Source: Mesorhizobium sp. | GTDB lineage: Bacteria; Pseudomonadota; Alphaproteobacteria; Rhizobiales; Rhizobiaceae | Assembly: GCF_004962245.1 (NCBI RefSeq) | Contig: NZ_SUHQ01000012.1 | Coordinates: 62,001 to 126,000 of the forward strand | DNA length: 64,000 nucleotides | Direction: 5' to 3' | Shown here: positions 10,645 to 16,304 of the stretch, in pieces | How positions within the stretch are numbered: the first letter of the stretch is position 1 | Layout of the letters: the number at the start of each line of letters is the position of its first letter | Position numbers and translations under genes: made by a program | Notes under the pieces: generated by a model | What the model was told of the DNA's origin: nothing | Database searches by the model: none | The model's input: only the letters and a program-made list of their open reading frames with translations

Positions 10645-10953
10645 TCAAACCCCTTGTGAAGCCATCGGCGCAAGGCCGAAATTGATCAGCAAGACGAGAT
10701 AGCCCACGCGCAAGGCCATAAGCCAGAGCACGCTGAAGACGATCACCACCGGCTGGGTCAGGATCGACGGCGTGATGGTCCGCACGATCCGCAGGAACGG
10801 GTCCGTGACGGCCTTGAAGAAGCGCCAGATGTAATTGTCCCAGCTTTCGGGCACGAAGAGGCCGAGCAGGAGGCGCCCCATCAGCGTGTACATCACGGCG
10901 GCAAGGATGAAATTCGGTATGTGGAAATACCAGTAGGACCAGAAATCGTTCAT
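10645..10953 (-). CDS. Small membrane protein, distantly YggT-like (102 aa)
   Basis: A 102-aa protein with an N-terminal hydrophobic segment (FILAAVMYTLMGRLLLGLF), a cytoplasmic-looking stretch FFKAVTDPFLRIVRTITP and a second hydrophobic part. The middle stretch recalls the YggT pattern ([14 protein letters not shown] in the true YggT gene at 47816), so a remote relationship is possible but unproven. It is the first gene of a two-gene unit with the 106-aa membrane protein. Its role, perhaps related to the neighbouring symporter, is unknown. Confidence 0.6.
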   Translation of the reverse strand: MNDFWSYWYFHIPNFILAAVMYTLMGRLLLGLFVPESWDNYIWRFFKAVTDPFLRIVRTITPSILTQPVVIVFSVLWLMALRVGYLVLLINFGLAPMASQGV

Positions 10954-11058: not shown

Positions 11059-12924
11059 TCAGGCTATCTTTTCTTCCATCATCTGCTTGCCGCGAGGTAC
11101 GCGGATTTCCTCGATGAAATCCTGCATATCCCGGGATGGCGCCTTGGTGAGAAGGCTGACAATGATCATTACGGCGAAGCCCACCGGCAGTCCGAAAGTC
11201 GCCGACGAGATGTTCTTCACCCCCCACCACAGTTCCATGTTCGGCGTAGCCTTGTCGAAGTCGGCGCCGTACTGGGTCATCACCAGATAGAAGAGGGTGA
11301 TGCCGAAGCCTGCGATCATGCCGGCGACAGCGCCCGCCGAGTTGGCACGCTTCCACCAGACGCCGAGCACCAGCGCCGGGAAAAGGCCGCCGGCGGCAAG
11401 CGAGAACGCCCATGAAACCATCGACAGGATGTCGGACGGCTTGGTCGATGCGACGTAGGCGGCCAGCACCGCGACCATAACCAGCAAGATGCGGGACACG
11501 ATCAGACGCCGCGACGTAGGCGCATGCTGGTCGATCATCTTGTAGTAGATGTCGTGGCTGAGCGCATTGGCGATGGCGAGCAGCAGACCGTCCGCCGTCG
11601 AGAGCGCGGCGGCAAGACCGCCGGCGGCGACGAGGCCCGAGATGACGTAAGGCATGCCGGCCATTTCCGGCGTGGCCAGGACGATCATGTCGGCATTCAG
11701 GTTGATGTCGGCAAACGAAAGTGCCGTCACGCCCTTTTCAGCGCAGGCCGCTACGATCGCCGCGGTGTCTGTCGCCGCCTTGCCGCAGATCTGCACGAGC
11801 GTATTGTCGGCAGCGGCCCAGCGCATCATCCATCCGGCTTTCTCGCCGATGTTTTCAGGTGTCAGGCCCGACGCCACCAGGTCGAGCATCGTCCACTTGG
11901 CGAACGCCGCATAGGCGGGCGCCGTAAAGTAGAGGATGAAAATGAACAGCAGCGACCAGGCGACCGAGACACGCGCTTCCCGCACCGACGGGGTGGTGAA
12001 GTAGCGCATCAGGACGTGCGGCAGCGACGCCGTGCCGACCATCAGGCAGAGGATGAGCAGGAAATAGTTCTTCGCATCATATCCGCCATGCGAGAACGGT
12101 GTCGCGTGGCCGGGCACGATGTTTTGCGCGGCTTCAAGGGCCGCGATGCCCTGCAAGGCCTGACCCTGCATGAGCTGCGGGATAGGAATGCCCGTCTTTA
12201 CCGTGGACATCCAGATGACGGGGATCAGGTAGGCGATGATCAGCACGATGTACTGGGCGACCTGCGTCCAGGTGACGGCGCGCATGCCGCCGAGCATCGA
12301 GCAGACGAGAATGCCGGCCAGGCCGACATACACGGCGACGTTGAAGTCGATGCCCAGGAAGCGCGAGGAGATGATGCCGGTCCCGAATATCTGCGCCACC
12401 ACATAGGTGAAGGAGCAGGAAAACAACACGATCACACCGATGAAGCGCGCCAGATTGCCGCCATAGCGCGCCGACAGGAAGTCGGGGACGGTATAGGCGC
12501 CGAACTTGCGCAGATAGGGCGCAACGAGGATGGCCACGAGCACGTAGCCGCCGGTCCAGCCCAGCACGAAGGCCAATCCGTCATAGCCGAGCAGGTAGAG
12601 CGAGCCGGCCATGCCGATGAATGAAGCCGCCGACATCCAGTCCGCGCCGGTCGCCATGCCGTTGTAGAGCGCCGGTACGCGACGCCCAGCGACGTAATAT
12701 TCGCCGACGTGCATGGTACGGCTCAGAATGCCGATCACCGCGTAGATGACGATGGTGAAGCCCATGAATAGGTAGCCGATTATGACATTCTCGACGCCCA
12801 TGGCGCTCAAGATAGCCATCAGGATGATGAAGGCTATGAAACCGCCGGTGTAGATGCCGTAGATGCGGCCGAGATTGGAGGTGAAGTCGCCTCCACCTGC
12901 CGTGGTCGATGTCGTGTTAGCCAT
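11059..12924 (-). CDS. Sodium:solute symporter (acetate/monocarboxylate permease type)
   Basis: A 621-aa SSS-family carrier with about 13 TM segments. The start is ATG 12924 with GGGGGA 8 bases upstream; the track TTG at 12942 overlaps the small-subunit gene. Family features include the GADWMSAASFIGMAG sodium-site helix, GWTGGYVLVAILVAPYLRKFG and STADGLLLAIANALSHD. An unusually long periplasmic-looking insertion around residues 360-420 contains two Cys. Carriers of this subclass pair with a DUF4212 subunit, encoded immediately upstream, much as ActP pairs with YjcH. Likely substrates are acetate, propionate, pyruvate or lactate; the sequence does not choose. Confidence 0.88.
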   Translation of the reverse strand: MANTTSTTAGGGDFTSNLGRIYGIYTGGFIAFIILMAILSAMGVENVIIGYLFMGFTIVIYAVIGILSRTMHVGEYYVAGRRVPALYNGMATGADWMSAASFIGMAGSLYLLGYDGLAFVLGWTGGYVLVAILVAPYLRKFGAYTVPDFLSARYGGNLARFIGVIVLFSCSFTYVVAQIFGTGIISSRFLGIDFNVAVYVGLAGILVCSMLGGMRAVTWTQVAQYIVLIIAYLIPVIWMSTVKTGIPIPQLMQGQALQGIAALEAAQNIVPGHATPFSHGGYDAKNYFLLILCLMVGTASLPHVLMRYFTTPSVREARVSVAWSLLFIFILYFTAPAYAAFAKWTMLDLVASGLTPENIGEKAGWMMRWAAADNTLVQICGKAATDTAAIVAACAEKGVTALSFADINLNADMIVLATPEMAGMPYVISGLVAAGGLAAALSTADGLLLAIANALSHDIYYKMIDQHAPTSRRLIVSRILLVMVAVLAAYVASTKPSDILSMVSWAFSLAAGGLFPALVLGVWWKRANSAGAVAGMIAGFGITLFYLVMTQYGADFDKATPNMELWWGVKNISSATFGLPVGFAVMIIVSLLTKAPSRDMQDFIEEIRVPRGKQMMEEKIA

Positions 12925-12938
12925 TGACGTTCCCCCGA

Positions 12939-13193
12939 TCAATCTTCATGGACACCATGCTCTTCGTCGATCGCGTTCTGGCGCCGTGCGAACCAGAACA
13001 GCATGATGACGAAGGCGATGAGCGAACCCTGAGCGGCCATGTAGAAGCCGAGCGGAAAGCCAAAAATGACGATGGTGTTGAGTTGCTCCACGAACATGTG
13101 GATGACGTAGCCGAAGAACACCCACAGGCCCAACATGACGAACATGAGGCTCTTGGTCTTGTTCCAATAACTTATACGGTCTGGCGTCGCCAT
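12939..13193 (-). CDS. DUF4212 sodium:solute symporter small subunit
   Basis: An 84-aa two-TM protein from ATG 13193, preceded by AGGGAGGG. The motif YWNKTKSLMFVMLGLWVFFGYVIHMFVEQLN is cut in two by family-typical conserved W and F residues, and FARRQNAIDEEHGV closes the protein. This is the small subunit found beside SSS symporters in proteobacteria (DUF4212). Its stop lies 14 bases before the symporter ATG, and both start from the 13194-13479 promoter region. Confidence 0.88.
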   Translation of the reverse strand: MATPDRISYWNKTKSLMFVMLGLWVFFGYVIHMFVEQLNTIVIFGFPLGFYMAAQGSLIAFVIMLFWFARRQNAIDEEHGVHED

Positions 13194-13335
13194 AGCGTTG
13201 AACCCTCCCTTGGTTGGGCAGCTTGCGAACCGTCTCGACCGCAAGGCGCCGTTTAAAGCTTGCCTCTTCCGCTAACGCGGAAGCCCTCCGGCATATGTTG
13301 CGGCCGGGTATAGAATCAGCCGACCGTAACTTTAT

Positions 13336-13350: not shown

Positions 13351-13374
13351 TGCCGCTGCTGTTCATACGACTTT

Positions 13375-13414
13375 AGAATCGGTGAGAGGACTGGAGAATC
13401 GGTGAGAGGACTAG
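13375..13414 (+). repeat. Tandem 20 bp direct repeat
   Basis: AGAATCGGTGAGAGGACTGG is followed directly by AGAATCGGTGAGAGGACTAG (19 of 20 identical). The pair lies between the inverted repeat at 13336 and the start of the 13480 gene. It could be paired regulator sites or a slippage duplication. Confidence 0.7.
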
Positions 13415-13479: not shown

Positions 13480-14109
13480 ATGGGCCTGCTGAACGATCTG
13501 TTGCCCGAGTTCCTGCGCAAACCGCAGCCGATCGGCAACGTCGGCGAACTGGCTGACTTCATGGACTCGCGCGCTGCCTTCCTGGCGCAGAAAAGCATCG
13601 TCGAGTTCTGCCGCGTCAGGGCAGGGGTCTACTGGCAGAAGCTGTTCAGCGAGAAGGATTTCCAGACTGCGCTGAACCATTCACGCTGGCGCGCCTACCC
13701 TGCGTGCTACGCCATCGTGGCGGAAATGGTAGAGGGGGCGCTGCGCGAACCCGCCGGCCTGCGCCAGCGAGGCCTGCCAGCGGCGCTGGAAAAGGTGGCC
13801 CTGGCAAGCTTCTCCAAATATGCCGTTCCGGAGGGTTCGCCTCCCGCCTTCTGGGAGGACGCCGCCGAGTTGACACGACAGCGGCTCGCCGCCACGCAGG
13901 CCGGTCCGTCGCGGCCGGTGCGTGAAATCCCCGAGCCGCTGGCGCGAACGGTTTTCGAAGCGGTCCCGATCCACCCCAATCTCCTGACCAACGACTACGA
14001 CTATATTTTCAACTTCCTGAGAATGAACCTGCTGCGTGCGCATGAGGATTTCCTTGCGCAGGCTGACCGCAGCGCTCTGGTCGATGAATTGCTTGGCGCC
14101 GCCCGCTGA
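13480..14109 (+). CDS. Conserved hypothetical protein (209 aa)
   Basis: Soluble, mostly helical 209-aa protein with no signal peptide or TM segment. It has a good ribosome site (GGGAGAG) before ATG 13480. Recognisable stretches are SIVEFCRVRAGVYWQKLF and HPNLLTNDYDYIFNFLRM. No enzymatic motif is evident, and I do not recognise the family. It lies between the symporter/DUF4212 operon and the exonuclease-CBS-DUF294 gene, converging on the latter with 65 bases between. A link to that system is possible by position only. Confidence 0.7.
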   Translation: MGLLNDLLPEFLRKPQPIGNVGELADFMDSRAAFLAQKSIVEFCRVRAGVYWQKLFSEKDFQTALNHSRWRAYPACYAIVAEMVEGALREPAGLRQRGLPAALEKVALASFSKYAVPEGSPPAFWEDAAELTRQRLAATQAGPSRPVREIPEPLARTVFEAVPIHPNLLTNDYDYIFNFLRMNLLRAHEDFLAQADRSALVDELLGAAR

Positions 14110-14174: not shown

Positions 14175-16304
14175 CTATGCGAACATCAGGTCCCGCACCA
14201 GGTCGGATGCTGACTGAAGGTGCTTGATGAGTCTTTTGAGCTCTGCCTGCTGCTCGCGCGTAAGGGCATCGATCTCGATGCGGTTGGAGGCAGGAATGCC
14301 GGCGTAGATGTCATGCGTCTGCTGACCGAGCAGCAACCCGATCAGCATGGCATGGCCAGCCAGCATTGCCTTCATGTCGCGCTCGCCGCCAATGTCCAGC
14401 GCGACGAGTTTCTCGAACCGGGCACGTGTGCTCCGCTCGCGGATGCCGTGGCGAATTGCAAGAGTGCGCGCGGTCGCAACGATCGGAAAAAGGCCATGTT
14501 TCTTGATGTCCAGCCGGCCATTTTCAAGCTGGAAGCCACCAAAAAGAGTGAAGGGATTGCCGGCTGTTATCTGCTCGCCGAGAAGCTTCGCGAACACCGG
14601 CTCGGCGTGGCCGCGGTCATATGCATGTTCGATGAACTGGGCGGCCAGCGTCATGTCGCCGTGAACCGGCCTCAGGTCGTAAACGATATCGACATTGAGG
14701 AGGTCCTCCGGCCGGTGGCGGCGAACCCAATCTTCGACGCGCCCCTTCCAGGTGTCGAGGCTTCCGCGGAATGCCGCATTCACGGCCATTACCCCACCTT
14801 TGCAATACGGCACGCCGGAGATGTCGAGCATGTCGGCGAGCTTGGCACCGAGATTCTTGAACCAGGCGTCTTCCGGCCCGTCCGGCCTACCATGTGCGAA
14901 GACGATTGCGTTGTCCTGGTCGGGTGCCATCAGGCTTTCGCCACGGCCGCCGGAGCCGAGCACGAGCACGGCATAGGCACAGGGCGGCGGGCCGTGGCCT
15001 TCGGTCTGCATCTGTTGTTGCGCAAGCACAGCAGCGCGGCGCGTAATCGAGCAAAGTTCCTCGCTGATGATTTCCGCCACCACGCGGGGGTCGATCTCCT
15101 CGCCGATGAGCGAACGCACGACGCCCGGCAGCATCGACCAGGCGGCCGCCAATTCGGCGACGTCCTTGGCATGCTCGATCGTGTCGTCGAGATTGATGGC
15201 CGCGGTGGCGCGGAGCCTCAGCAGGTCGCGCGCCGAAAGCATGCCGACCAGCATGCCCCCATCGTCGCGGACGGCGAGGTGGCGAACTTTCAGCCGATCC
15301 ATGCGCCCGATCGCTCGATAAGCGAATGCGGCGGCGCGGATGCTTATCAGTGGTCGCGTAGCGATGCTTCCGATCGGCAGGTCAAAAACGCGCTCGGCGT
15401 CGGATGATATGCGGCGCATCAGATCGCGCTCGGTAACGATGCCGTACTCCACGACCGGTTGATCTGGCGTCCCTCGGTCGGACACGAGGACCGAGCTGAT
15501 CTTGCGCTTGACCATAAGGTCGATGACCTGCCTTGTCGGTTTGGTCGATTTCACCACGACTGGTGGGTCGCTCATAAGGCTGCCGACGCGATGGCGATAG
15601 GCATATGGATCTACCGGCTGAAACGCGGGAACCTGGGGGCGCGACACCGGCTCAACCCAGCCGGCGCGATGGCCGGCTTCGAGAGTGTGCGAAAGGGCAA
15701 GGCAGGCGACCTCAGCCTCTCCGAGTGTCCGGATGTTGCGCTTGCGCAACTCCGGAATCAACGCGGCAAAGATGTCTCCCGCCGCGATCGCATCGCCCAG
15801 AGCCGAATGGCGGCCAGCTATCTCCAGGCGAAGCCAGGCGGCGATCATTTCCAGCGAATGGTCTGCCAGATCGGGATTTGCTATGGTTGCAAGAAGCCGG
15901 ACGCACAGCGACCGAGGCTTTTTCCATGGCAAATGGGCGCGTCGGCATTCGCGTTTCAACACCGCCAGGTCGAAGCCGATCGAGTGGCCGACGAGGATGC
16001 GGTCTCCAGCGAACTCTTGGAATTGCGCCCATGCATCCAAGAAGCTCCCGGCTCCGTCAACATCGGCATCCGTGATGCCGTGGACGAGCGAGGCCTCAGG
16101 CGGGATCGCTTCACCAGGATCGATGAGGAGATTGAACTGAGGTTCCCGGACGACCTTGCCATGCGCGATGCCGATTGCGCCAATCTGGACCACGCGTGCC
16201 TTTGTGGCGTCGAGCCCAGTTGTTTCGGTGTCGACGGCCGCAGCCGCTATGGCTATCAGTGGTGTCGCGCCGGTCGCCCGCTTCATTCCCGTCCCCTTCG
16301 ACAT
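14175..16304 (-). CDS. DnaQ-like exonuclease - CBS pair - DUF294 nucleotidyltransferase-like fusion protein
   Basis: A 709-aa four-part protein. Residues about 18-190 form a DEDDh exonuclease: VDTETTGLD (Exo I), GHSIGFDLAVL (Exo II) and HSALGDA (Exo III). About 245-365 is a CBS pair (MSDPPVVVKST, YGIVTERDLMRR, VGMLSARDLLRL). About 385-540 is a DUF294 nucleotidyltransferase-like domain with GSGGRGESLMAPDQDNAIVF. About 560-705 is the DUF294 C-terminal substrate-binding-like domain. All exonuclease acidic residues appear present. In gammaproteobacteria, from memory, CBS-DUF294 proteins and DnaQ-like exonucleases are separate genes next to DUF4212/SSS symporters; here they are one chain near the same symporter type. 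A role in signalling (adenosine nucleotides, second messengers) is inferred. Confidence 0.88.
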   Translation of the reverse strand: MSKGTGMKRATGATPLIAIAAAAVDTETTGLDATKARVVQIGAIGIAHGKVVREPQFNLLIDPGEAIPPEASLVHGITDADVDGAGSFLDAWAQFQEFAGDRILVGHSIGFDLAVLKRECRRAHLPWKKPRSLCVRLLATIANPDLADHSLEMIAAWLRLEIAGRHSALGDAIAAGDIFAALIPELRKRNIRTLGEAEVACLALSHTLEAGHRAGWVEPVSRPQVPAFQPVDPYAYRHRVGSLMSDPPVVVKSTKPTRQVIDLMVKRKISSVLVSDRGTPDQPVVEYGIVTERDLMRRISSDAERVFDLPIGSIATRPLISIRAAAFAYRAIGRMDRLKVRHLAVRDDGGMLVGMLSARDLLRLRATAAINLDDTIEHAKDVAELAAAWSMLPGVVRSLIGEEIDPRVVAEIISEELCSITRRAAVLAQQQMQTEGHGPPPCAYAVLVLGSGGRGESLMAPDQDNAIVFAHGRPDGPEDAWFKNLGAKLADMLDISGVPYCKGGVMAVNAAFRGSLDTWKGRVEDWVRRHRPEDLLNVDIVYDLRPVHGDMTLAAQFIEHAYDRGHAEPVFAKLLGEQITAGNPFTLFGGFQLENGRLDIKKHGLFPIVATARTLAIRHGIRERSTRARFEKLVALDIGGERDMKAMLAGHAMLIGLLLGQQTHDIYAGIPASNRIEIDALTREQQAELKRLIKHLQSASDLVRDLMFA

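Follow-up and report, generated by a model that had tools for sequence, protein, structure and literature searches.

The analyzed window, a stretch of 64,000 nucleotides of Mesorhizobium DNA, encodes a protein that joins a DEDDh exonuclease, a CBS pair, and a DUF294 nucleotidyltransferase followed by a DUF294_C domain in one chain (14175 to 16304, minus strand; Pfam, alignment, and model). This fusion probably regulates the nearby symporter, which is composed of a DUF4212 small subunit and an SSS/SLC5 large subunit. We propose, more tentatively, that its transferase and exonuclease halves write and erase a nucleotide tag, a chemistry that seems possible yet falls somewhat short of probable, and the conjunction of symporter regulation with this chemistry is put forward with the same reserve.

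The gene is a single uninterrupted open reading frame of 709 amino acids starting with ATG, and Pfam matches, every one above its curated cutoff, place RNase_T, the CBS pair, DUF294, and DUF294_C in that order. The original prediction of an exonuclease, a CBS pair, and a DUF294 domain in one chain near a DUF4212 symporter is thereby borne out, the symporter genes lying at 11059 to 13244 on the same minus strand. The DEDDh (RNase_T/DnaQ-like) domain spans residues 24 to 179 (15768 to 16235, minus strand; E = 6.5e-30), and the CBS pair covers about residues 240 to 365 (15210 to 15587, minus strand; two CBS matches from residue 240, 2.1e-17). The pol-beta nucleotidyltransferase domain DUF294 follows at residues 393 to 532 (14709 to 15128, minus strand; E = 1.6e-33, with GSGGR and D462/D464), and the helical DUF294_C domain, of the HEPN/KNTase_C clan (PMC3710099), occupies residues 572 to 703 (14196 to 14591, minus strand; E = 4.4e-26). 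We found no Pfam match in the fusion to the cyclic-nucleotide-binding domain (PF00027), nor to the HD domain or ACT pair that are traits of the bifunctional uridylyltransferase GlnD.

Both active sites appear intact. All five DEDDh residues are present, as had been claimed (D25, E27, D112, H166, and D171), and they are invariant in 55 aligned fused proteins, as are the transferase residues G450, S451, R454, D462, D464, and D543. Among aligned relatives, the DEDDh residues are kept in 156 to 157 of 158 exonucleases, and GS..R, D462, D464, and D543 in 162 to 163 of 163 transferases. The fusion therefore carries the G-S-x2-R, D-x-D, and distal D of CBS-DUF294 GlnD/GlnE-like nucleotidyltransferases. 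D543 lies just past the end of the DUF294 Pfam match and is the likelier third carboxylate, since the alternative D539, which fused forms conserve, gives way to S or A in proteins with a cyclic-nucleotide (cNMP) domain. Nucleotidyl transfer by the DUF294 half and 3'-5' exonuclease activity of the DEDDh domain are predicted from these residues.

An AlphaFold2 model of the fusion, built on an alignment of 55 window and locus sequences, has a mean pLDDT of 91.6 and a pTM of 0.90. In a PDB search, the exonuclease part finds DnaQ and RNase T (best, DnaQ 8h2f, TMt 0.87), sharing with this family its fold and all five catalytic residues, and the closest solved relative of the CBS pair is the AMP-bound protein PAE2072 (2rif, 32% identity). 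The transferase and DUF294_C part matches both halves of Escherichia coli GlnE (1v4a, E = 1.5e-8; 3k7d, E = 1.6e-8), as well as Legionella DrrA (6yx5). The fusion thus combines a GlnE-like fold, seen in the PDB search, with the DUF294_C helical domain assigned by Pfam, and a survey of HEPN domains places DUF294_C together with the C-terminal domains of GlnD and GlnE (PMC3710099). GlnE and DrrA are protein-AMPylating enzymes, and such a predicted fold favors a protein tag over a free oligonucleotide.

Misassembly or a frameshift does not account for the fusion, because fused relatives (48 to 94% identity) occur in 80 listed loci from many genera and the model is confident along the whole chain. 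In a scan of GTDB species genomes, 526 encoded relatives of the fusion were recovered. The best 80 of these 526 belong mainly to Hyphomicrobiales, including Mesorhizobium, Aminobacter, Aurantimonas, Chelativorans, Nitratireductor, Rhodobium, and others, with Xanthobacteraceae, Bradyrhizobium, and Thalassobaculum also represented; they are essentially full-length, two having broken frames. The nearest named relative among the matches listed is from M. helmanticense (94% identity). The two broken genes, from M. wenxiniae (L159:10001-12116) and M. prunaredense (L191:9905-12147), may be pseudogenes or reflect sequencing errors. One further fused gene (L205) lies on a contig binned as Acidobacteria; this contig is probably misbinned, because the protein groups with Xanthobacteraceae-type sequences in the tree.

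Upstream of the SSS/SLC5 large subunit (11059 to 12942, minus strand; TIGR03648, VC_2705 family, 705 bits against a cutoff of 321), which bears an N-terminal extension, lies the gene for the DUF4212 small subunit (12939 to 13244, minus strand; Pfam and NCBIfam), and the family models TIGR03647 and TIGR03648 both score above cutoff at this pair. A YGGT-family membrane protein (10645 to 10953, minus strand; Pfam) follows downstream, as it also does in the linked fused loci L032, L044, L045, and L047. Between symporter and fusion, divergent from DUF4212, sits a gene for a conserved 209-amino-acid protein, here called g209 (13480 to 14109, plus strand), which emerges from locus comparison as the third member of the module. 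It matches nothing in Pfam or NCBIfam; its model is all-helical (pLDDT 91.6), and the best PDB fold match, at E = 0.56, is not convincing. Symporters linked to g209 share an N-terminal extension, GDFxxNLGRIYGxYTGGF, that is missing from the other symporter type. In addition, g209 remains beside the DUF4212-SSS genes in all nine loci inspected in which the fusion is located elsewhere (L267 to L275), and the family also occurs in genomes without the exonuclease and transferase.

With the opposite-strand g209 gene intervening, the fusion stands outside the symporter transcription unit. The usual alphaproteobacterial order is <SSS <DUF4212 / g209> exonuclease> CBS-DUF294>, or g209> fusion>. Since g209 and the fusion are co-oriented in the majority of related linked loci from organisms other than Mesorhizobium and its close relatives, the fusion gene appears to have been inverted in the Mesorhizobium lineage.

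The link to the symporter is most apparent from gene content. In a sample of 121 genomes from the window's family, 31 contain a strong DUF294 gene, which is fused in 25 (the window included) and of the cNMP type only in 6. DUF4212 is present in 29 of these 31 genomes, against 10 of the 90 others (Fisher p = 3e-17), and across alphaproteobacterial families the two occur together in 30 of 37 DUF294-bearing families (p about 1e-13 to 1e-14), with genomes and families taken as independent in these statistics, without tree correction. Among genomes with the fused form only, 23 of 25 carry DUF4212. The original prediction had named a lack of co-occurrence with DUF4212 symporters across genomes as one refutation; what we observe is strong co-occurrence. 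We count this in favor of our model. Most fused genes were not seen beside the symporter (5 of the 25 in the family sample were seen beside it in the stretches read, and 20 were not), yet the genome nearly always has one. In the wider class sample, DUF4212 occurs in 39 of 52 DUF294 genomes and in 28 of 237 others. Counter-cases exist on both sides: 13 of those 52 genomes lack DUF4212, and about eleven class-sample genomes have g209 and the type-II symporter without DUF294. Within Mesorhizobium (147 species), DUF294 is found in 17 species, DUF4212 in 16, and both in 16, a co-occurrence that largely reflects physical linkage, as the two share a contig at a distance of about 2 kb; the block is patchy in the genus. 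In the only Mesorhizobium with a DUF294 match and without DUF4212 (L305, G805:C2), the DUF294 gene is a different one that scores higher and lies on a second contig.

Exonuclease and CBS-DUF294 genes are close companions where they are separate. For the 53 DUF294 genes in the alphaproteobacterial class sample, the exonuclease is fused in 11, at most 700 bp away in 33 (44 of 53 loci for the two together), and within 10 kb in 5; it was not found for 4. CBS-DUF294 proteins are common, a strong DUF294 match being obtained in 109 of 299 genomes of the phylum sample. Among the 28 top-scoring loci inspected there, the exonuclease immediately follows the DUF294 gene in about 19, and an SSS gene immediately precedes it in about 11. 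These counts support the earlier claim of neighboring genes insofar as the two adjoin each other and, often, SSS symporters. In unfused alphaproteobacteria the neighbors are often co-oriented, sometimes overlapping, and frequently located behind the g209 gene.

The same prediction held that the exonuclease had replaced a usual N-terminal cyclic-nucleotide domain, which the phylogeny does not support. In a tree of the CBS-DUF294 part, the cNMP-bearing proteins form a clade of their own, with a support of 99; the fused proteins branch outside it, among forms without a cyclic-nucleotide domain. The quick tree implies three changes and so could suggest several independent fusions; a single fused clade, however, is not rejected (AU p = 0.63) and has the better likelihood, so one origin is enough. 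Because the fused forms fall in the cNMP-less region and the split exonuclease is usually next door, the simplest history is that the exonuclease was joined on from the adjacent gene, the fusion thus descending from a neighboring exonuclease/transferase pair.

Joining an exonuclease to a CBS-DUF294 module sets the fusion apart from DnaQ and RNase T, and its split counterparts differ in a further way. A predicted transmembrane segment, often two, precedes the exonuclease domain in 32 of the 42 split exonucleases of the tree set, as judged by a simple hydropathy window rather than a trained predictor, and some split forms show a weak PAS-like match. Two such exonucleases (L058:11631-13778 and L143:7874-9265) adjoin CBS-DUF294 genes and have two predicted transmembrane segments along with weak PAS-like matches. 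The predicted anchoring of most split exonucleases suggests that they work near the membrane; an anchor of this kind would be unusual in a DNA repair enzyme and would suit a target in the membrane.

The divergent promoter between g209 and DUF4212 contains a conserved operator-like site, TACGACTTTAG (13366 to 13376, plus strand; locus comparison), which is the only exact copy in the genome, where a control pattern occurs five times. The core TACGACTTT recurs upstream of DUF4212 in many alphaproteobacterial loci, including distant ones and the type-I symporter loci L057 and L058. The site resembles one half of the CrbR ACTU sequences, TACGACTAAAGTCTAAA being an example; the window does not contain the complete inverted repeat, and a CrbR-like reading is therefore suggestive only. 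A spaced GAC-N5-GTC palindrome was also considered as the CrbR site and gave only scattered matches, the conserved part being the TACGACTTT half. The same promoter holds two direct repeats, GAATCGGTGAGAGGACT (13376 to 13392 and 13396 to 13412), of which diverged copies (up to three) are seen in L148, L150, L152, and L154.

A comparable gene pair is known from Pseudomonas. PP_0354/PP_0353 of P. putida and Pflu5625, of the MxtR/ErdR (CrbS/R) regulon, likewise involve a CBS-DUF294 transferase and an RNase_T exonuclease linked to SLC5 symporters and to the use of monocarboxylates (PMC9927547, PMC5715377). There the genes are separate and the transferase has a cyclic-nucleotide domain, whereas Mesorhizobium has one chain without that domain, accompanied by DUF4212 and g209; the P. 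aeruginosa PAO1 homologs adjoin actP and yjcH, unlike the Mesorhizobium fusion. P. putida grows more slowly on pyruvate when it lacks the exonuclease PP_0353 or ActP-I, but not when it lacks the transferase PP_0354 (PMC9927547). Such an asymmetry would follow from inhibition by the transferase and relief by the exonuclease, and it serves as an analogy only, since the pair is of the cNMP type and goes with ActP/DUF485.

We propose that the fusion would act as a cytoplasmic regulator of the two-subunit, monocarboxylate-type symporter. Its GlnE/GlnD-like DUF294 half would place a nucleotide, probably AMP, on the symporter or on a partner such as the g209 protein, thereby lowering uptake, and the DEDDh half would remove the tag by cutting its phosphodiester bond. 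DnaQ-type exonucleases hydrolyze p-nitrophenyl-TMP, a compound that mimics a tyrosine-linked nucleotide. The CBS pair, binding adenylates, would set the balance of writing and erasing; its likeness to an AMP-bound CBS protein is why we count adenylate sensing for the model. We infer the substrate, the direction of control, and the CBS ligand in this scheme. Like the fusion, GlnE (the glutamine synthetase adenylyltransferase/adenylyl-removing enzyme) and GlnD combine a pol-beta transferase with a helical C-terminal domain, and they hold two opposed activities in one chain, as the fusion would if the model is right. In those enzymes, erasing is done by a second GlnE domain or by an HD domain, and sensing by ACT or PII, where the fusion would use DEDDh and CBS. 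To our knowledge, nucleotidylation has been demonstrated for no DUF294 protein, and we know of no target of CBS-DUF294 proteins. Alignments of DUF4212, SSS (tails included), and g209 contain no tyrosine conserved as expected of a target, and a specific nucleotidylated tyrosine in these proteins was accordingly dropped as a candidate. The write/erase model would account for the retention of both active sites, for two genes that stay together and fuse, and for the P. putida asymmetry. The specific form of a one-chain, GlnE-like switch, with an exonuclease of the DNA-proofreading type as de-nucleotidylase and the symporter controlled by adenylate level, is slightly more doubtful than the chemistry itself. 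Aravind and Koonin (1999, as cited in PMC5715377) had already predicted the transferase to be a nucleotidylating regulator; what we add is the proposal that the exonuclease does the erasing.

Control could instead act on RNA, with the DEDDh domain trimming or degrading an mRNA of the symporter or of central metabolism, or a small RNA, the transferase extending RNA 3' ends or serving as a regulatory module, and CBS sensing energy. The discoverers of PP_0353 proposed mRNA decay for it (PMC9927547), and the RNase T/DnaQ-like fold has nucleic-acid-bound relatives. However, among the listed top PDB matches the transferase fold resembles GlnE and DrrA rather than CCA- or poly(A)-polymerases, a membrane anchor is predicted for many partner exonucleases, and a general RNA enzyme is not expected to couple tightly with one symporter class, so we consider this reading unlikely. 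Less likely again is a messenger, a short oligonucleotide or nucleotide conjugate made by the transferase, degraded by the exonuclease, and gating the symporter, an idea that goes back to the original prediction. With a synthase and a 3'-5' exonuclease in the same chain, a futile-cycle signal would be feasible, but the structures closest to the transferase half are those of enzymes that modify proteins, and no receptor was identified in the conserved neighborhood.

The enzymes might also act on other proteins of acetate/pyruvate metabolism within a CrbS/R-like regulon, the symporter being merely co-regulated. In several linked loci we observe an SSS-type (SLC5) hybrid histidine kinase of about 1,170 amino acids with PAS, HisKA, HATPase, and receiver domains, and another contig of the window genome encodes one relative (52% across the full length); the CrbR-like site precedes DUF4212, and the Pseudomonas pair belongs to the MxtR/ErdR regulon with acs and scpC (PMC9927547, PMC5715377). 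Yet that site is found only upstream of DUF4212 and not of the fusion in unlinked loci, and the partner measured by presence and absence is the symporter, which leaves co-regulation about as improbable as RNA-level control. A chance joining of adjacent genes with no coupled chemistry would need only one mutation, the split genes being adjacent and sometimes overlapping, but it is the least credible of these readings, given a fused form kept across many genomes and genera with both active sites intact.

New here are the conserved third gene (13480 to 14109), the predicted membrane-anchored split exonucleases, and the CrbR-like site upstream of DUF4212; a literature search, with subscription journals mostly outside its reach, returned nothing on DUF4212 or on the fused architecture. 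Fusion and co-inheritance tie both enzymes to one symporter class. If true, the write/erase model would mean that uptake of the acetate/pyruvate type is switched posttranslationally, and it would give DnaQ-like exonucleases a new role.
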